Assembly: GCA_017454355.1 (NCBI GenBank)
Contig: JAFTDD010000049.1
Coordinates: 1 to 54,465, forward strand
Source: Muribaculaceae bacterium
GTDB lineage: Bacteria > Bacteroidota > Bacteroidia > Bacteroidales > Muribaculaceae
Length of the DNA: 54,465 bases
Direction of reading: 5' to 3'
Position 1 is the stretch's first letter; the number at the start of each line of letters is the position of its first letter. Position numbers and translations under genes: made by a program. The notes under the pieces are model-generated. The model was not told the origin of the DNA. It worked only from the letters and a program-made list of their open reading frames with translations, and did not search any database. Shown here piece by piece: positions 5,204 through 51,126 of the stretch.

Positions 5204-6334
5204 TCATTTAGGAGGGGGCGGGGAGGCTGCCAAAACCTCGGTGACGCGGTCGACGATGCGTTGCGGGTCGATGTCGAGGCAGCGGTAGTCACCGTAGCGG
5301 CATTTGTTCTCGCCATACACGCCGCAGGGGCGGCAGTCGAGGTCGTCGCGTTGCACGGCGTTGTCGTTGCTCTGTCCGTAGCCCATAAAGCCGCAGTGGG
5401 GATGTGTGGCGCCCCAAACGCTCACCACCGTCAGCCCCACGAGCGATGCCAGGTGCATATTGGCCGAGTCCATGCTCACCATGACGTCACAGCGGGCCAT
5501 CAGTTGCAGTTCGTCGGCCAACGTGTGTTTCACCTCGGCAAGCGACGTGGCGTTCTTCAGGCGGTGCGCAATCGGCCGCAGGGCGAGTTTCTCCTGTTTG
5601 CCGCCGCCAAGCAGGAAGATGTGTACGCCGGGGATGGCGGCGAGCCTGTCGATGACTTGCTCCATACTCTTGAGAGGGTATTCCTTGCCGCGATGTTGCG
5701 AGAACGGCGCGACGGCAATCCACCGCTCCCCCGCCGCCTTCTCCGGCACGATAGGCGATGACGCGAGTCCTCCCCCGTCCCCCTGGCCTCCCCCTTCCCC
5801 CTCCTGAAGGAGGGGGTGAAAGGTTGTGTCGGGACCTTGCTCCCCCTCCTTTAGGAGGGGGCGGGGGGGGAGGACGCTACATAACACCTCACGGTAGCGT
5901 TCCACGGTCGTCTTCAGTTGGTCGTGGCGGCGGCCGCGGATGCGGTCGCGCTTCTCGGCGTGCCCTTTATCGATGCGCGCCACGCGGCAGCCGGCAAGGC
6001 GCAGCCTCAGGTCAACGGCCCATGTGCGGATCACGCTGTGGAGGTCAGCCACGTGGGTGAAATTGTATTTCTCGTGCAGGCGTCCGGCCAGCCGCCACAT
6101 TGCCCAGAAGCCCATGCGGTCGCCGCGCACGTCAACCGTCTCAATGACGAGGTTCTCCGGCGCTTCGATCATCATTGTGGCCGGCCACGGCTGCGTGAGC
6201 ATCACAAAGCGCACATCAGGATTGGCGCGGCACACTGGATACAATGCCGGCACCGTCATCGCGATGTCGCCCAGCGCACTCAGCCGCATTACCAGCACCG
6301 TCGTCGATCCTCCTTTCTCACTACTCGAGTTCAT
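5204..6334 (-). CDS. Glycosyltransferase family 9 (heptosyltransferase-like)
   Basis: A 376-residue GT9 enzyme, expected to add a sugar to lipopolysaccharide core or a related glycolipid at the inner face of the cytoplasmic membrane. Family features are the N-terminal VLVMRLSALGDIAMTVPAL, the central WIAVAPFSQHRGKEYP and the C-terminal MVSMDSANMHLASLVG and VWGATHP. Oddities: residues about 150-190 are a Pro/Gly-rich insert encoded by two GC-rich palindromes (near 5790-5880) placed in frame between the N- and C-terminal lobes. The last residues (SPPPPK) and the stop codon are encoded by a third copy of that palindrome at 5198-5226. A good promoter lies upstream. The sugar donor is not determinable here. 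DUF4254, often found next to GT9 genes in this phylum, occurs 7 kb away. Confidence 0.87.
   Translation of the reverse strand: MNSSSEKGGSTTVLVMRLSALGDIAMTVPALYPVCRANPDVRFVMLTQPWPATMMIEAPENLVIETVDVRGDRMGFWAMWRLAGRLHEKYNFTHVADLHSVIRTWAVDLRLRLAGCRVARIDKGHAEKRDRIRGRRHDQLKTTVERYREVLCSVLPPRPLLKEGEQGPDTTFHPLLQEGEGGGQGDGGGLASSPIVPEKAAGERWIAVAPFSQHRGKEYPLKSMEQVIDRLAAIPGVHIFLLGGGKQEKLALRPIAHRLKNATSLAEVKHTLADELQLMARCDVMVSMDSANMHLASLVGLTVVSVWGATHPHCGFMGYGQSNDNAVQRDDLDCRPCGVYGENKCRYGDYRCLDIDPQRIVDRVTEVLAASPPPPK
5780..5880. repeat. GC-rich palindromes inserted in frame in the GT9 gene
   Basis: Two palindromes, CCCCCTCCTGAAGGAGGGGG and CCCCCTCCTTTAGGAGGGGG, lie about 30 bp apart within the coding sequence. 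A third copy (CCCCCTCATTTAGGAGGGGG) is at the 3' end of the gene, and a related CCCCTCCTTCCGGAGGGG lies inside the zinc-ribbon gene near 16270. The reading frame stays open through them. Confidence 0.75.
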
Positions 6335-13973: not shown

Positions 13974-14178
13974 GGTTGAGGGTTGAGTGGTTGAGTGGTT
14001 GAGTGGTTGAGTGGTTGAGTGGTTGAGTGGTTGAGCCATTTGCTATCGCAAATGGGAAGAAATGATTTGTTGTCGTAAGCGGCTACGCTAAGGCGAGACC
14101 CTACATTTATCCCCGAGCGCGCTAGCGCGAGGCTCAACCGCTCAACCGCTCAACCTCTCAACTATCAACCTCTCAACC
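13974..14178. repeat. Composite GGTTGAG repeat, copy A
   Basis: Tandem GGTTGAGT octamers (about eight units) on the left lead into the hairpin CCATTTGCTATCGCAAATGG (14036-14055). A variable middle contains CCCTACATTTATCCCCGAGC and GCGCTAGCGC. On the right are units reading CTCAACC, the complement of the left units. The whole can fold into a long hairpin of variable length. It fills the gap between the phospholipase and DUF4254 genes. Confidence 0.85.
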
Positions 14179-18303: not shown

Positions 18304-18321
18304 CGTTATCTCGTTTTCTCG

Positions 18322-18563
18322 TTGAGGGGTTGAGAGGTTGAGCGTTGAGGGGTTGAGGGTTGAGCGTTGAGGGGTTGAGAGGTTGAGCGTTGAGGGGGTG
18401 AGAGGTTTAGTGTTGAGAGGTTGAGCCATTTGCTATCGCAAATGGTAATAAATGTAGAGCCTGGCCGCCACGAAGTCCAATCCATTATCCCCAATCGCGC
18501 CAGCGATTGGCTCAACCCCTCAACCTCTCAACCTCTCAACCCTCAACCCTCAACCTCTCAACC
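18322..18563. repeat. Composite GGTTGAG repeat, copy C
   Basis: The longest copy. About a dozen irregular units (GGTTGAG, GCGTTGAG, GGGGTTGAG) lead to CCATTTGCTATCGCAAATGG (18426-18445). The middle includes TCCATTATCCCCAATCGCGC and AGCGATTGGCTC, and the right arm has repeated CCTCAACCTCTCAACC units. It lies between recO and the large TerD-like gene. Confidence 0.85.
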
Positions 18564-34564: not shown

Positions 34565-36127
34565 ATGGCCACAAAATTACACTTTCGTGAGCATATAAAC
34601 AAGCAATTGATTCTTTTTCCTGAAAGAATTGATAAGGATATCGCACCAGACGACCCGGTCCGTCTGGTCGATGCGGTTGTTGACGGTCTGGACATGAATC
34701 GCATCTATAGCTTATACTATGAGCGCGGCGCAAGTCCATACCACCCGAGGATGATGCTCAAGGTCATCATCTACGGCTACATGAACAACATCTACTCTTG
34801 CCGCAAGATCGAGGTCGCCCTCAAGCGTGACGTTCACTTCATATGGCTGGCCGGTTATGACCAGCCGGACTACAAGACCATCAACAACTTCCGCAACCGC
34901 GTCAAGGAAGAAATCGACAACGTGTTCACCCAGCTGGTGCTGATTCTGGCCGAGCGTGGTCTTGTGAGTCTTGATGTGGAGTACATCGACGGCACGAAGA
35001 TAGAGTCGAAGGCCAACAAATACACCTTCGTCTGGCGCAAGACCGTAGAGAAGAACCGCGCCAAGCTGATGGAGAAGATAGGAGTGCTGCTGAGCCAAAT
35101 CGATGATGCCATCGCCCAGGACAATGCGGACTCGCAGGAGAAGGTGGAATTCACCCCCGCTCAGTTGGGCGAGATCTGCGACGAGTTGCGCCAGTCGCTG
35201 GCCCGGGCTCCCGAGCCTGCCTGCAAGCAGGAGAAGGAGGCTCTCCGAAAGCAGGAGAAGGAAATAAAGCGACTTGAACAGATGGGCGACAAACTCAGCG
35301 AGTATGACGGTCGGCTCGAACAGATTGGCGAGCGCAACTCCATGTCCAAGACCGACCCCGACGCCACATTCATGCGCATGAAGGAGGACGCGATGAACAA
35401 CGGGCAGACCAAGCCCGGCTACAACGTTCAGATTGCCACCGAGAACCAGTTCATCACCGACTTCGGCCTGTTCCACAACCCCACGGACACGCTCACGCTG
35501 CCCACGTTCCTGTCCTCGTTCCGCAGCCGATACGGGCACATGCCCGACGAGTGCTGCGCCGACTCCGGCTACGGCAGCGAGGAGAACTACCGGTTCATGG
35601 AGGAACACTCCATCGAGGCTTTCGTCAAGTACAACTACTTCCACAAGGAGTTGAGAGACGCGTTCACAAGCGACCCCTTCCGCACCGGGAACCTCCACTA
35701 CAACGCCCACGGCGATTACTTCGTCTGCCCGATGGGGCAGCATATGACACGCGTGGGCTCACGCAAGTCAAGGACAGCAAGCGGCTATGTCAGTGACCTG
35801 GCGGTCTACCGTGCGCAGCGGTGCCGGGGCTGCCCGCTCCGTGGCTCGTGCCACAAGGGCGGTCAGGACAACCGCGAGATTGTGGTCAACCACCGGCTGG
35901 ACGGGTACAGGCGCAAGGCGCGGGAGAGGCTCACCTCGGAAAAGGGGCTCACGCACCGCTCAAGAAGACCCATAGAGCCCGAGGCCGTGTTCGGGCAGAT
36001 GAAATTCAACATGGCATACAGGCGCTTCCGCCACTTCGGACAGGACAAGGTCACAATGGACTTTGCCTTCTTAGCCATTGCATTCAACATCAAGAAATGG
36101 GCCGCAAAAACGGCAAAATCCGCCTGA
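34565..36127 (+). CDS. IS1182-family DDE transposase
   Basis: A 520-residue transposase. The N-terminal DUF772 domain has DKDIAPDDPVRLVDAVVDGL and YHPRMMLKVIIYGYMNNIYS. The DDE catalytic region follows: first Asp near VEYIDGTKIES, second in CCADSGYGSEENYRFMEE, Glu in PEAVFGQMKFNMAYRRFR. A Cys cluster (CRGCPLRGSC) precedes the last segment, as is usual for the family. The length is full and the frame intact, so the element may be active. It carries its own promoter and lies between matching terminal repeats. Confidence 0.92.
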   Translation: MATKLHFREHINKQLILFPERIDKDIAPDDPVRLVDAVVDGLDMNRIYSLYYERGASPYHPRMMLKVIIYGYMNNIYSCRKIEVALKRDVHFIWLAGYDQPDYKTINNFRNRVKEEIDNVFTQLVLILAERGLVSLDVEYIDGTKIESKANKYTFVWRKTVEKNRAKLMEKIGVLLSQIDDAIAQDNADSQEKVEFTPAQLGEICDELRQSLARAPEPACKQEKEALRKQEKEIKRLEQMGDKLSEYDGRLEQIGERNSMSKTDPDATFMRMKEDAMNNGQTKPGYNVQIATENQFITDFGLFHNPTDTLTLPTFLSSFRSRYGHMPDECCADSGYGSEENYRFMEEHSIEAFVKYNYFHKELRDAFTSDPFRTGNLHYNAHGDYFVCPMGQHMTRVGSRKSRTASGYVSDLAVYRAQRCRGCPLRGSCHKGGQDNREIVVNHRLDGYRRKARERLTSEKGLTHRSRRPIEPEAVFGQMKFNMAYRRFRHFGQDKVTMDFAFLAIAFNIKKWAAKTAKSA

Positions 36128-36338: not shown

Positions 36339-36460
36339 ATTGAGCGCGGATAAAGGCCTCTCCCCTACTCTGATTAAAAACTAACGTCCTGCCACTCAAA
36401 TCCCATGAGTGGCGGGACGTTGCCTTGTTTCCGATGGGCAGAATAAATTCTGCCCCTACA
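36339..36460. repeat. 122-bp direct repeat, copy 2
   Basis: This matches 30538-30659 with about three differences and starts with the same vapC-tail sequence ATTGAGCGCGGATAA although no vapC precedes it. It contains the hairpin with arms AACGTCCTGCCACTCA (36383-36398) and TGAGTGGCGGGACGTT (36406-36421). The bases just left of it (CTACACGCCGCGTGAATGAT) resemble those just right of copy 1. Confidence 0.88.
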
Positions 36461-36549
36461 TGCTACATGCTATGTGCTACATGCTACATGCTACATGCTA
36501 CATGCTACGTGCTACATGCTACGTGCTACATGCTACATGCTACGTGCTA
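36454..36549. repeat. CTACATG heptamer tandem array
   Basis: About thirteen copies of a 7-bp unit, CTACATG with variants CTATGTG and CTACGTG, run without interruption into the stop codon (CTA of the plus strand, 36547-36549) of the SPFH gene. Pure short tandem repeats of this kind readily change copy number. Confidence 0.9.
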
Positions 36550-37515
36550 CTTCACGGGGGGCTCGGGGGCGTTGAACAGTTCACGGATGCCGCCGATGCT
36601 GCCCAGCAGGTTGCTCGCCTCGAACGGCAGGAACACCGTCTTGGTGCGGTCGCCGCTGGCCACCTCCTCGAGCATTGTGATATACTTCTGCGCCAGCAGG
36701 TAGTTGGCCGGATTGGTGCTCTTGCCCACGGCCTCGGTCACCACCTCGATAGCCTTGGCCTCGGCCTCGGCGCGGCGGATGCGTGCCTGCGCCTCACCCT
36801 CGGCGCGTAAAATCTCGGTCTGGCGGTCTGCCTCCGCCTGATTGATGCGGGCCTCCTTCTGACCCTCACTCTGCAGGATTGCGGCAGCCTTCTGACCCTC
36901 GCTCGTGAGGATGGTGGCGCGCTTGTTACGCTCGGCCTGCATCTGCTTCTCCATAGCCTGCAGCACGCTTTGCGGCGGCTGAATGTCTTGCAACTCAACG
37001 CGGTTCACCTTGATGCCCCACTTGTTGGTGGCGTCGTCAAGAACGGCGCGTAACTTCGTGTTGATCGTGTCGCGGCTCGTGAGCGTCTCGTCAAGTTCCA
37101 GTTCGCCGATGATGTTACGCAGCGTGGTCTGCGTCAACTTCTCGATAGCGTTGGGCAGGTTGTTGATCTCATAAACTGCCTTGAACGGGTCAACAATCTG
37201 GAAGTAGAGCAGCGCGTTGATCTGCGTCTGCACGTTGTCCTTGGTGATCACATTCTGCTTGTCGAAGTCGTAAACCTGCTCACGGAGGTCGATGTCGGTT
37301 GTGTAAACATATCGTCCGGCGACCATTGTCACAAACTCCTTGGCGCGGTCCACAAACGGAATGATAACGTTAATGCCCGGCTTGAGCGTAGCGTGGTAGC
37401 GGCCCAGGCGCTCGATGATTTTTGTCTCGCTCTGCGGGATAATCACGATGGTCATCTTCACCACAATCAGGGCGAGAATCACAATTGCAATTAAAATAAT
37501 TAATGATGCATCCAT
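36547..37515 (-). CDS. SPFH/Band 7 membrane protein (stomatin/QmcA-like)
   Basis: A 322-residue membrane-anchored protein. One transmembrane segment lies at residues about 4-26 (LIILIAIVILALIVVKMTIV). The SPFH domain follows (SETKIIERLGRYHATLKPGI, then NVIIPFVDRA), and then a long Ala/Glu-rich coiled coil (EAEAKAIEVVTEAVG) and a short tail. SPFH proteins form membrane rings and scaffolds and often work with NfeD proteins, which is encoded 186 bp upstream in the same direction. The stop codon falls in a CTACATG array, so the exact C-terminus may vary between strains. Confidence 0.9.
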   Translation of the reverse strand: MDASLIILIAIVILALIVVKMTIVIIPQSETKIIERLGRYHATLKPGINVIIPFVDRAKEFVTMVAGRYVYTTDIDLREQVYDFDKQNVITKDNVQTQINALLYFQIVDPFKAVYEINNLPNAIEKLTQTTLRNIIGELELDETLTSRDTINTKLRAVLDDATNKWGIKVNRVELQDIQPPQSVLQAMEKQMQAERNKRATILTSEGQKAAAILQSEGQKEARINQAEADRQTEILRAEGEAQARIRRAEAEAKAIEVVTEAVGKSTNPANYLLAQKYITMLEEVASGDRTKTVFLPFEASNLLGSIGGIRELFNAPEPPVK

Positions 37516-39094: not shown

Positions 39095-39357
39095 ATATCA
39101 TGAATTTCCATTAATTGTCCATGAATTTTTATCTCACGTAATTTGGGTTTCTAAAGTAGTAATAGTTTTGAATATCAGTGTTTTGTAGGGACACAATTCA
39201 TTGTGTCCGCCCCTGCGGCATGTGGACACAATGAATTGTGTCCCTACATTTTCTTGGATTATTACTTGATAATCACTATGTTCCATTTTAGAAACTTGTG
39301 TTATTGATTTTAATTATAATATTTAGAATAAATATTCATGGAAATTCATGTTAAAAA
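39095..39357. repeat. AT-rich arms around a GGACACAAT palindrome pair
   Basis: An outer pair, TCATGAATTTCCATTAATTG at about 39100 and AATATTCATGGAAATTCATG at about 39328, encloses two 20-bp palindromes, GGACACAATTCATTGTGTCC (39189-39208) and GGACACAATGAATTGTGTCC (39224-39243). The latter pair resembles the arrangement at 261-313 but with a different core. Confidence 0.7.
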
Positions 39358-41205
39358 TTAATCAGCGACTTTTTGCATTGCACTCAGTTCGTTATTCGTG
39401 TTTAAGGCGGCTGTCACGGCGGCTGCTTTGGCCGTGCCGATGACTGCGGCCAACTCATCAACTGACGCTTCGCGAATACGCTTCAAGCTCTTGAAGTGCT
39501 TGAGTAACAGTTCTTTAGTCTTTGGGCCAATACCGCTGATGTCGTCTAACGCGCTGTGAACCTGCGACTTGCTGCGTCGTTTTCGGTGGAACGTGATTGC
39601 GAAGCGGTGTGATTCGTCGCGCAGGCGTTGGATAACTCGCAGCGTCTCACTGTTGCGGTCGATGTTGAACGGCAGTTCGTCTCCCGGAAAGAAGATTTCG
39701 TCCATACGCTTGGCCAGACCCACCACGGCAATGCTGTCTTCACCTATCGCTTCGAGTGCGTCAATAGCCGCCGTCAGTTGCCCTTTGCCGCCATCAACAA
39801 CGATGAGGTGGGGGAGTTCTTGACCTTCTTCTTTGAGGCGCGTTACGCGGCGTGTAATCACTTCGCGCATCGAGTCAAAGTCATCGTTGCCGGCAGCCGT
39901 CTTGATGATGTAATGACGGTATTCTTTCTTGCTTGGTTTGCCGTTACGGAACACTACGCACGACGCCACGGCGTCGCTGCCCTGAATGTTGGAATTGTCG
40001 AAGCATTCGATGTGCCGTGGCAACGTGTCGAGGTGAAGGTCGCGCATCATTGTGGTCATGGTGCGTGTGGCGCGTTGTTCGGGGTTGAGTTTCTCCATCA
40101 TCTTCAACCGGTCCTGCTTCCGTTGCAACGCGTTTTTTATTGCTATATCCAGCAGTTTGCGCTTGTCGCCTCGTTGTGGTATGACGTACTCTACACCTTC
40201 GCTTTCAACATCAGGAAGAACATTGACAACGACCTCGCGTATACGGTCTCGCTGATACATTGTGGCGAAACGATGCCTGATTTCACTGATTGCCAGTGAC
40301 ATCAATCCTTGCGGTGTCGCCTCGTCGTCGTGGGTGTTAGTTTTATATTCAAGAGTAAGCGACTGTACCACCGAGCCGTTGCGCACGTGCATAAAGTTCA
40401 CGTATGCAGTGTCGTCGTCGATGTTTATTGCAAACACGTCGATGTTATGGACAGTAGGGGAGACGATACATGATTTCGTGCGAAGTTTCTCGAGCAGCAT
40501 CAGTTTGCGTTTCGCTACTTCTGCTTCCTCAAATTTGAGATCGCCGGCAAGCGTCATCATTTCTTCCTGCAGGTGTTCAGCCACGAGTTTAGTGTCGCCG
40601 TTGAGAATTCCTTTTATCTGTTCGATATATTGAGCGTATTGTTCTGCGCTAACTAATCCCTGACAACAGCCCTCGCAATTTTTGATGTGAAATTGCAAGC
40701 AGAGACGATGTTTTTTGGTCTCGATTGTTTCACGTGAAACATTGTGTCGACATGTCCTGATGGGGAATATCTGGTGTAGTGCAGTGACCAGTGTGTGAGC
40801 GATTTCTGCCTTAGGATACGGTCCGAAAAACAAGGCGCCGCGATGAACCTTTTCACGTGTGATAAACACTCGCGGGTATAATTCTTTTGTCACACAAATC
40901 CACGGGTAGGATTTGTCGTCCTTTAGCAGTACGTTGTACTTTGGCTGGTACTCTTTTATGAGATTGTTCTCCAGGTCGAGAGCCTCTTCCTCGGTATTGA
41001 CGACGGTGTATTCCATGTCGGCGATGTTGCTCACCAACCTATTGGTGCGCTCCACTTCGTGCTCGCGGTTGAAGTAGGAACTGACGCGCCGTTTCAGGTT
41101 TTTCGCCTTGCCGACGTAGATAATTGTGCCCTCACTGTTGTAGTATCTGTACACGCCCGGCGTTTCGGGTAACAGAGATATTTTCAGCCTCAGCCTCTCG
41201 TCCAT
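39358..41205 (-). CDS. uvrC: Excinuclease ABC subunit C
   Basis: A 615-residue nucleotide-excision repair nuclease that, with UvrA and UvrB, cuts on both sides of DNA damage. The N-terminal GIY-YIG nuclease is seen in PGVYRYYNSEGTIIYVGKAK (residues 15-34). A UVR motif lies near 215 (DLKFEEAEVAKRKLMLLEKL). The C-terminal RNase-H-like nuclease has ECFDNSNIQGSDAVAS and IVVDGGKGQL, and a helix-hairpin-helix pair ends it (DDISGIGPKTKELLLKHFKS). It is full length. A perfect parS sequence (40726-40741) is embedded in the reading frame at about residues 155-160, where it encodes VSRET. Confidence 0.96.
   Translation of the reverse strand: MDERLRLKISLLPETPGVYRYYNSEGTIIYVGKAKNLKRRVSSYFNREHEVERTNRLVSNIADMEYTVVNTEEEALDLENNLIKEYQPKYNVLLKDDKSYPWICVTKELYPRVFITREKVHRGALFFGPYPKAEIAHTLVTALHQIFPIRTCRHNVSRETIETKKHRLCLQFHIKNCEGCCQGLVSAEQYAQYIEQIKGILNGDTKLVAEHLQEEMMTLAGDLKFEEAEVAKRKLMLLEKLRTKSCIVSPTVHNIDVFAINIDDDTAYVNFMHVRNGSVVQSLTLEYKTNTHDDEATPQGLMSLAISEIRHRFATMYQRDRIREVVVNVLPDVESEGVEYVIPQRGDKRKLLDIAIKNALQRKQDRLKMMEKLNPEQRATRTMTTMMRDLHLDTLPRHIECFDNSNIQGSDAVASCVVFRNGKPSKKEYRHYIIKTAAGNDDFDSMREVITRRVTRLKEEGQELPHLIVVDGGKGQLTAAIDALEAIGEDSIAVVGLAKRMDEIFFPGDELPFNIDRNSETLRVIQRLRDESHRFAITFHRKRRSKSQVHSALDDISGIGPKTKELLLKHFKSLKRIREASVDELAAVIGTAKAAAVTAALNTNNELSAMQKVAD
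40726..40741. promoter_or_regulatory. parS: parS site inside uvrC
   Basis: TGTTTCACGTGAAACA is a perfect 16-bp palindrome and an exact match to the bacterial parS consensus (TGTTNCACGTGAAACA) bound by ParB. It lies in uvrC, where it encodes part of NVSRETI. A second identical site is at 42049-42064. Confidence 0.92.
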
Positions 41206-41260
41206 TTTAATTCCCCCGTCAATATTTCACATATAGCTAACTGCAAAAGTGTCGTAATTT

Positions 41261-41476
41261 TTTTAAACATGAATTGCCATTAATTACCATTAATTTTATA
41301 CAAGAGAACATGAGGACATGACGACATGAGAACATGAGATTGTTCTCTGACTAATTCATGATTAATTTATGGACAATTTATGGAAATTCATGTTAAAAAT
41401 TATTCTATGCAAGATGTGTTTTTTTTGCAGTGTTACATTAATGGATATTAATGGAAATTCGTGTTCTATCTTCGGT
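41261..41476. repeat. AT-rich palindrome of the CCATTAAT type
   Basis: The left arm is AACATGAATTGCCATTAATT then ACCATTAATTTTA; the right arm is TTAATTTATGGACAATTTAT then GGAAATTCATGTTAAAAA. The core carries AGAGAACATGAGGACATGAC and GAACATGAGA repeats, related to the cores at 13137-13248 and 29510-29630. A partial arm lies at 41440-41470. Confidence 0.75.
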
Positions 41477-42007
41477 TTAGAAGTCGAAAACAGTGGTTAC
41501 TTCAATTTCCTTTGGAAGCATATCGCGCCCGTGCAGGTCGCTCAATCCGCACACGAAGTTAATCATTACATCGCGAGGCTTCATGGATTGTACAAGTTCG
41601 AGCGCTGCGAGTATCGTGCCGCCGGTTGCGAGCAAGTCGTCATGGATGAGGACTACGTCGTCGTTGGTGATGGCGTCGCGGTGGATTTCAATCGTGTCGG
41701 TACCGTACTCCTTGTCGTAGGTCTTGCTGATTACTTCGGCAGGAAGTTTACCGGGCTTGCGAATGGGCACAAAGCCGGCTCCCAGTCTTGCCGCCAAAAT
41801 TGCGCCAAAGATAAAGCCACGACTCTCAATTCCCACCACTTTGGTGATGCCCTTCTCCTTGTACATCTCATAAAGCGCGTCACTAACCGTTGTGAGATGT
41901 TGAGGTGACTTCATCAGCGTTGTCAGGTCCTTGAACTGGATGCCTTCGATGGGGAAGTCAGGAATGTTGCGGACGGCCTGCTTGGCCTCTTCAATTCGGT
42001 TTCTCAT
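41477..42007 (-). CDS. apt: Adenine phosphoribosyltransferase
   Basis: A 176-residue purine salvage enzyme that makes AMP from adenine and PRPP. The PRPP-binding motif is VVLIHDDLLATGGTI (about 117-131), and the conserved segments FPIEGIQFKDLTTLM and VVGIESRGFIFGAILAARLG match the family. Length is standard. It is 70 bp downstream of mnmG in the same direction, with a parS site in the gap. Confidence 0.95.
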   Translation of the reverse strand: MRNRIEEAKQAVRNIPDFPIEGIQFKDLTTLMKSPQHLTTVSDALYEMYKEKGITKVVGIESRGFIFGAILAARLGAGFVPIRKPGKLPAEVISKTYDKEYGTDTIEIHRDAITNDDVVLIHDDLLATGGTILAALELVQSMKPRDVMINFVCGLSDLHGRDMLPKEIEVTTVFDF

Positions 42008-42048
42008 AATCTATTGTTTTTTCTTTGTTTTTACGTTCAAAACGTATT

Positions 42049-42064
42049 GTTTCACGTGAAACAA
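42049..42064. promoter_or_regulatory. parS: parS site between mnmG and apt
   Basis: TGTTTCACGTGAAACA, identical to the site in uvrC and to the parS consensus. It lies 12 bp beyond the mnmG stop (42077). Two perfect sites within 1.4 kb are far beyond chance for a 16-bp sequence. Confidence 0.93.
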
Positions 42065-42076
42065 CTATGAATTAAT

Positions 42077-43956
<1,880 letters not shown>

Positions 43957-43960
<4 letters not shown>

Positions 43961-49356: not shown

Positions 49357-49360
49357 CCCC

Positions 49361-49459
49361 CTAGGAATCCTAGAAACCCTAGGAATCCTAGAAACCCTAG
49401 GAATCCTAGACCCCTAGGAATCATAGGAACTCTAGTCACCCTAGAAAAACTAGTCATCC
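49361..49459. repeat. CTAG array left of der (9-bp units)
   Basis: Units of 9 bp, CTAGGAATC and CTAGAAACC, alternate from 49361 and become degenerate to about 49459. CTAG occurs at nearly every unit although this tetranucleotide is usually rare in bacterial DNA. The matching inverted array is at 51007-51126. Confidence 0.88.
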
Positions 49460-51006: not shown

Positions 51007-51126
51007 TTAGTTTTCCTAGTTTTTCTAGTTTTTCTAGTTTTCCTAGTTTTTCTAGGGTTTCTAGGGTTCCTAGGATTCCTAGGGTTTCTAGGGTTCCTAG
51101 GATTCCTAGGGTTTCTAGGATTTCTG
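51007..51126. repeat. CTAG array right of der (9-bp units)
   Basis: About twelve 9-bp units, grading from CTAGTTTTT to CTAGGGTTT, CTAGGGTTC and CTAGGATTC, fill the whole gap between era (stop at 51128) and der. Read on the other strand they give the CTAGAAACC / CTAGGAATC units of the left array, so the two arrays are inverted relative to each other. Confidence 0.9.

Follow-up and report, generated by a model that had tools for sequence, protein, structure and literature searches.

The closest described counterparts of the locus considered here are the parS sites of chromosomal ParABS systems. The parS consensus that we find in this locus is used, with reference to Livny et al. 2007, in the available part of a Hi-C study of gut bacteria (PMC10197239), in which clusters of parS mark the origin whereas dnaA does not always do so, and the gut species covered there include B. 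caecimuris and M. intestinale, both of which are Bacteroidota. That parS can reside in coding sequence is already known, as according to the accessible portion of PMC4368675 nine of the ten Pseudomonas aeruginosa parS sites most likely lie within coding sequences. How parS sites came to be clustered in the course of evolution is named as an open question in the accessible text of PMC7333895, where the evidence cited comes from artificial insertions. A parS at a uvrC locus appears in the available part of a study on Borrelia (PMC9712426), in this case an artificially placed P1 parS and not a native one.

The window analysed here, i.e. the whole stretch of 54,465 nucleotides from a Muribaculaceae bacterium, contains the 16-bp palindrome TGTTTCACGTGAAACA in two exact copies, located by pattern search at 40726-40741 and 42048-42063, with no strand assigned to either. 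The initial annotation had described two perfect parS sites, and their exactness stands, but the second had been placed one base off, at 42049-42064. No third match was found in the window at up to three mismatches; shuffled versions of the window gave a mean of 0.27 matches at this tolerance, with two or more in 5 of 100 shuffles, and the real matches are exact. The first copy indeed lies within uvrC (39358-41205, minus strand; GIY-YIG, RNase H endonuclease and HhH domains), where it comprises the wobble base of codon 155 and the codons 156-160, which read GTT, TCA, CGT, GAA and ACA and encode V-S-R-E-T. The second copy is situated, as also annotated before, in the gap between mnmG (gidA; 42077-43960, minus strand) and apt (41477-42007, minus strand; phosphoribosyltransferase domain), i.e. 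after the 3' end of mnmG, and apt thus sits between both copies. In the draft genome to which the window belongs (G000; 2.7 Mb, 102 contigs, 89% complete), these two copies within 1.3 kb are the only matches at zero to two mismatches, and the 16-mer is thus few in number, clustered and rare elsewhere instead of being scattered. Ten more places in G000 have three mismatches, and a reversed control pattern gave 22 at up to three. Other features of the window are a long open frame at 34565-36127 that carries the transposase domains DDE_Tnp_1_6 and DUF772, a perfect inverted repeat with arms of 25 bases and a loop of 15 bases in the gap beside uvrC (39184-39248), and arrays of short tandem units (CTACATG, GGTTGAGT and CCTAGGAA-like) at 36456-36550, 13974-14035, 18320-18425, 49359-49447 and 51008-51125.

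The comparison covered 101 genomes, namely G000 and 100 relatives, and at least one exact TGTTTCACGTGAAACA is present in 59 of them, with the reversed control in 0 of 101. The uvrC regions were taken from 58 genomes of the genus with a usable uvrC (60 genes, three of them from bin G046) and from 35 genomes at the level of the order; G009 and G031, which gave no uvrC match, as well as G069 and G085 were left out. The genus genomes are draft bins, and absence of a site from one of them may mean a missing contig. In bin G046, three different mnmG-apt-uvrC regions are present on three contigs, which probably reflects a mixture of species. A site with zero to three mismatches follows mnmG in all 58 genus pieces that include this gene (L078 and L084 do not), 4-47 bases past the end of the mnmG alignment. 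Fifteen of these sites are exact, 40 have one mismatch, two have two and one has three; TGTTCCACGTGAAACA is the most frequent form (38 of 58). At the order level, 18 of the 35 pieces hold the mnmG end, the other 17 being unscorable, and all 18 have a site with at most three mismatches not more than 300 bases away. As the mnmG-side site is found in 58/58 genus pieces and 18/18 order-level pieces, it is probably ancestral, and the copy at 42048-42063 would then represent the old site of the Bacteroidales. In 20 further genomes, six of which represent sister genera, the mnmG-side site was in some cases found only at two mismatches, and G268 has no site at up to two mismatches near mnmG. When 20 genus genomes were scanned at up to two mismatches, 18 had a match (not G009 and G031), and all sites with zero or one mismatch lay within the cluster, except for one in the fragmentary G040.

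The second site is a matter of the genus. An internal site is present in 56 of its 60 uvrC genes, at residue 156 in 47, at residue 185 in eight and at residue 105 in one, and it lies 909-1470 bp from the mnmG-side site in the 54 pieces that have both. Of the 156-type sites, 43/47 are exact and 4/47 carry one or two mismatches; the single 105-type site is exact, and none of the eight 185-type sites is, six of them reading GTT, TCA, CAT, GAA and ACA, with L101 one base and L122 two bases off. In the window, the places equivalent to the 185-type and 105-type sites would be 40639-40654 and 40879-40894 by codon numbering (no strand), and neither is a parS there. L110, a uvrC fragment, was removed from all classes. 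The pieces of the four siteless genes carry the complete mnmG-apt-uvrC region, and a second site is therefore not needed throughout the genus. Outside the genus, an internal uvrC site at up to two mismatches was found in 0/35 order-level pieces (L152 has one place with three mismatches), in 0/6 sister genera and in 0/14 further genomes of the order. Among the genomes examined, the uvrC copy is thus found only in this genus. A species scan with one genome each, which may leave out the genome of the window, required an exact parS of the 156-type with the UvrC motif C-L-[QE]-[FY]-H after it and yielded 63 loci, 61 of which are the uvrC site (three from one bin). The records of these 61 are titled Muribaculaceae, Prevotellaceae, Porphyromonadaceae or Bacteroidales, they come, where a source is given, from roe deer, water deer, goat, sheep, water buffalo and horse, and they probably overlap in part with the genomes of our set (e.g. 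L203 with G025:C37, 261,309 bases).

The two remaining loci, L188 and L221, are not uvrC. L188 (titled Clostridia) has five exact parS within 1.35 kb (194-1544). L221 (Balneolaceae) has parS at 6074 and 6228, one directly after mnmG and the second within the following, rsmG-like gene (GidB Pfam match), where it is read as N-V-S-R-E-T, and the same frame is thus accepted in another gene. Of the three frames in which the palindrome can be read, one includes a stop codon and the other two give F-H-V-K and V-S-R-E-T, and the frame of the uvrC sites is V-S-[R/H]-E-T throughout, except for the degraded L128 with V-S-H-G-T. Siteless uvrC genes have other residues at the position, such as L-T-P-E-N, V-T-K-E-L or V-T-P-E-H. 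When 1779 positions were ranked by how good a starting point for the palindrome they offer in 11 chosen siteless genes (four from the genus, seven from the order), the three positions took places 8, 61 and 81; they have 8.4-9.6 mismatches on average, compared to a median of 12.

What keeps the 156-type site in place? The initial annotation had suggested that this stretch of uvrC is under a double constraint, and the codon usage bears this out. The codon test used 45 genes of the 156 class, after removal of the near-duplicates L116 and L117, and 285 columns that are degenerate in code and at least 95% conserved at the residue level. The five parS codons take ranks 1-5 of 285 for codon conservation, the fifth being tied with column 571; synonymous changes are absent from four of them and occur in one of 45 genes in the fifth. 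The other 280 columns have a mean major-codon share of 0.67, and only four reach 0.95. Moreover, each of the five is a minority codon in this set of genes (GTT 0.13, TCA 0.10, CGT 0.18, GAA 0.33, ACA 0.18), and the product of the five frequencies is 1.4e-4. The wobble base of the preceding codon 155 is T in 43/45 genes even though the residue may be N, H, I, S, A, V or L, and the two exceptions have C with the residues H and T; in codons of this kind, T makes up 17% of the wobble bases. Because minority codons and the wobble T are nearly fixed while residue 155 varies, the codon data argue that selection acts on the DNA at the 156-type site. In the 185 class (n=8), GTT, TCA, GAA and the preceding wobble T are fixed in 8/8, the third codon is CAT in seven and CGT in one, and the fifth varies in two, but as 63 of 481 columns lack synonymous variation in so small a set, this class is weak evidence when taken alone.

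One could suppose instead that V-S-R-E-T is kept for the function of UvrC and that the DNA match is a mere by-product. The peptide is indeed present in 46 of the 47 156-type genes and is located between C152 and C169, which are invariant in an alignment of 24 rows; the cysteines of UvrC presumably bind an iron-sulphur cluster. Such a protein-level constraint would account for conserved residues, but here the codons themselves are fixed, and minority ones at that, the base at codon 155 is held while its residue changes, and codons for V, S, R, E and T are variable in the rest of uvrC. In addition, the position is occupied by different residues in genes that lack the 156-type site, and the peptide turns up again at two other positions, so that we regard the probability of a by-product as practically negligible. 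It is similarly hard to believe that the uvrC site has no function and is decaying as a relic, an extremely improbable reading in our view. The siteless genes, the mismatches in a few 156-type sites and the inexact 185-type sites would fit such a decay, but the exactness of the large majority of 156-type sites does not, given that synonymous positions elsewhere in the gene vary. Selection on the DNA therefore remains our reading of the 156-type site. In a predicted UvrC structure (24 rows; pLDDT 83.6, pTM 0.54), residues 155-157 come just before a short helix (158-162). The 185-type position is at the beginning of a helix (187-201) and the 105-type position at the end of a strand, which may hint at a location of the sites in loops and where helices begin. 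Matches of UvrC to solved structures cover residues 1-100 and 383-596 only.

The identity of the 16-mer as parS can be judged by the protein that would bind it. The initial annotation had presupposed a parB gene, and one exists: G000 has one profile match to the ParB family, above the cut-off, with all three ParB Pfam domains and a GERR motif. Aligned to Caulobacter ParB, it has R173, F179, K184 and G201 (Caulobacter numbering). According to the accessible part of PMC7383237, R173 and G201 are absolutely conserved in ParB, Noc has Q and R at these positions, and K or R is found at position 184 in about 28% of ParB proteins. The cognate protein in G000 hence has the residues of parS-type specificity, and not the Q173 and R201 expected for Noc and its NBS. 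At its locus (L322:2173-5031, on G000:C47), the frames upstream of parB resemble, as named by eye, rpmA, rplU and surE, with no adjacent parA, and no ParA motif KGGxGK[ST] was found in 40 kb around it; in the parB loci of relatives, one of them from the genus, this motif lies just upstream of parB in 12 of 12. In G000, G025, G042 and G075, both parB and dnaA are on contigs other than that of the parS cluster, and as parB is elsewhere, there is no classical parAB-parS neighbourhood to point to. It is conceivable that another protein, either Noc-like or a regulator of mnmG-apt-uvrC, binds the 16-mer, as binding by ParB is predicted from sequence and the sites lie in and beside one gene cluster. 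Nevertheless, we hold this to be highly improbable, because the 16-mer is the exact parS consensus as used in the available part of PMC10197239 and is conserved in position, the sole ParB-family match in G000 has R173 and G201, and a promoter operator would hardly be expected inside a gene and at three different codons. The conservation throughout the genus, the rarity in the genome and a ParB with both specificity residues thus all agree with parS.

As to chromosomal position, the region had been proposed to lie near oriC, and this could be followed in relatives, as the GC skew of the window itself is flat around both parS copies. In the genus contigs G042:C29 and G025:C37, the minimum of the cumulative GC skew is within about 20 kb of parS, but in the stretch read of G075:C3 it is about 40 kb away, and G018:C3 gave no clear minimum relative to parS. 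For the complete 3.08-Mb genome G248, 20 evenly spaced 4-kb samples place the centre of the skew dipole at 1.71-1.85 Mb, with 0 of 2000 permutations as strong, and parS is at 1.804 Mb; in G272, 912 of 2000 permutations were as strong. The skew of relatives supports a possibly origin-proximal position of the parS region, with G248 and the two genus contigs in agreement, G075:C3 deviating and no clear signal from G018:C3 and G272. The use of dnaA as an origin marker was rejected: in G248, dnaA (at 0.7 kb) is separated from parS by about 1.27 Mb and lies towards the skew maximum, and together with the sampled skew origin this means that dnaA would mislead origin calling in that genome.

How did the internal site arise? 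As the positions 156, 185 and 105 are non-homologous, it must, judged by codon position, have arisen at least three times, and this holds under either history discussed below. In a quick protein tree of UvrC and MnmG, with the site columns removed, one branch sets the 156 class apart from all other genes (SH-aLRT 95) and another does so for the 185 class (SH-aLRT 100). The basal fork of the genus is open in this tree; L108, which is siteless, is located on it, and the remaining three genes that lack a site are beside the 185/105 group. With MnmG only, the 185 class holds (bootstrap 100) and the 156 class needs two changes, its group being on one branch side in 2% of 200 bootstrap trees, a bootstrap that is not fully settled. 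The class labels cluster strongly on both trees. Because the 156 group is unstable with MnmG only, the 156-type site may have been present in the ancestor of the genus and then been lost and replaced at 185 and 105, which would be a relocation instead of three gains on an ancestor with one site. The MnmG-only tree leans towards this history, which we consider doubtful but quite conceivable; the tree of both proteins argues against it by keeping the 156 group together, albeit with the open basal fork, and none of the six sister genera has a uvrC site at up to two mismatches. As for the driving force, we tentatively propose, with slightly less than even confidence, that selection in this lineage could act on the presence of an additional site for the loading of ParB, at a distance of about 1 kb from the first, that this additional site could have been gained at least three times by rewriting near-palindromic V/L-S/T-x-E stretches of uvrC, and that the spacing of the pair (0.9-1.5 kb) could matter for the assembly of the partition complex.

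Taken together, both 16-mers very probably are two parS sites of a single centromere cluster of the chromosome, of which the mnmG-side site is old and the second arose in uvrC, where selection at the DNA level keeps the 156-type. Judging by the homologous ParABS systems that have been characterised, ParB together with CTP would load as a clamp at each parS, spread across the approximately 1.3 kb between the sites and further, and thereby the partition complex would form that moves replicated origin regions apart. The second site is located within uvrC, at 0.9-1.5 kb from the mnmG-side site and at one of three non-homologous positions depending on the lineage. In every case it is read as V-S-x-E-T, where siteless relatives have, for example, L-T-x-E or V-T-x-E, and the 156-type is maintained by purifying selection on the DNA. 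Binding of ParB at these sites as well as a benefit of the second site are what we infer from the sequence data.

The genus thus offers natural cases in which an old site is accompanied by a nearby second one that was gained at three places in one gene. If the second site is indeed selected, the genus would be a natural experiment on the growth of centromere clusters, i.e. on the question raised in the accessible text of PMC7333895. The commonest form is held by selection at the DNA level, and five residues of UvrC are thereby fixed as well. A DNA-binding site can thus dictate part of a conserved repair enzyme, which is a trap when the conservation of the UvrC protein is read. In the literature found, covering titles and the openings of abstracts, with subscription papers mostly beyond reach, neither a parS in uvrC nor a turnover of intragenic parS is described, and no description was found of a single gene with parS at three codons in related lineages, beside an older site. 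With the parS of chromosomal ParABS systems, the locus shares the 16-bp palindrome, the few clustered copies, a canonical ParB and, to judge by some relatives, possibly the position on the origin side; it differs in having one copy inside uvrC, with alternative positions in relatives. The gut bacteria studied in PMC10197239 are similar in that Bacteroidota species are included and clusters of parS mark the origin, but sites inside uvrC are not mentioned in the available part of that work. The intragenic parS of P. aeruginosa also lie within coding sequence and are open to synonymous mutation, but in the genus described here, related lineages have the site in one and the same gene, at three positions that are not homologous, and this localises the gains.
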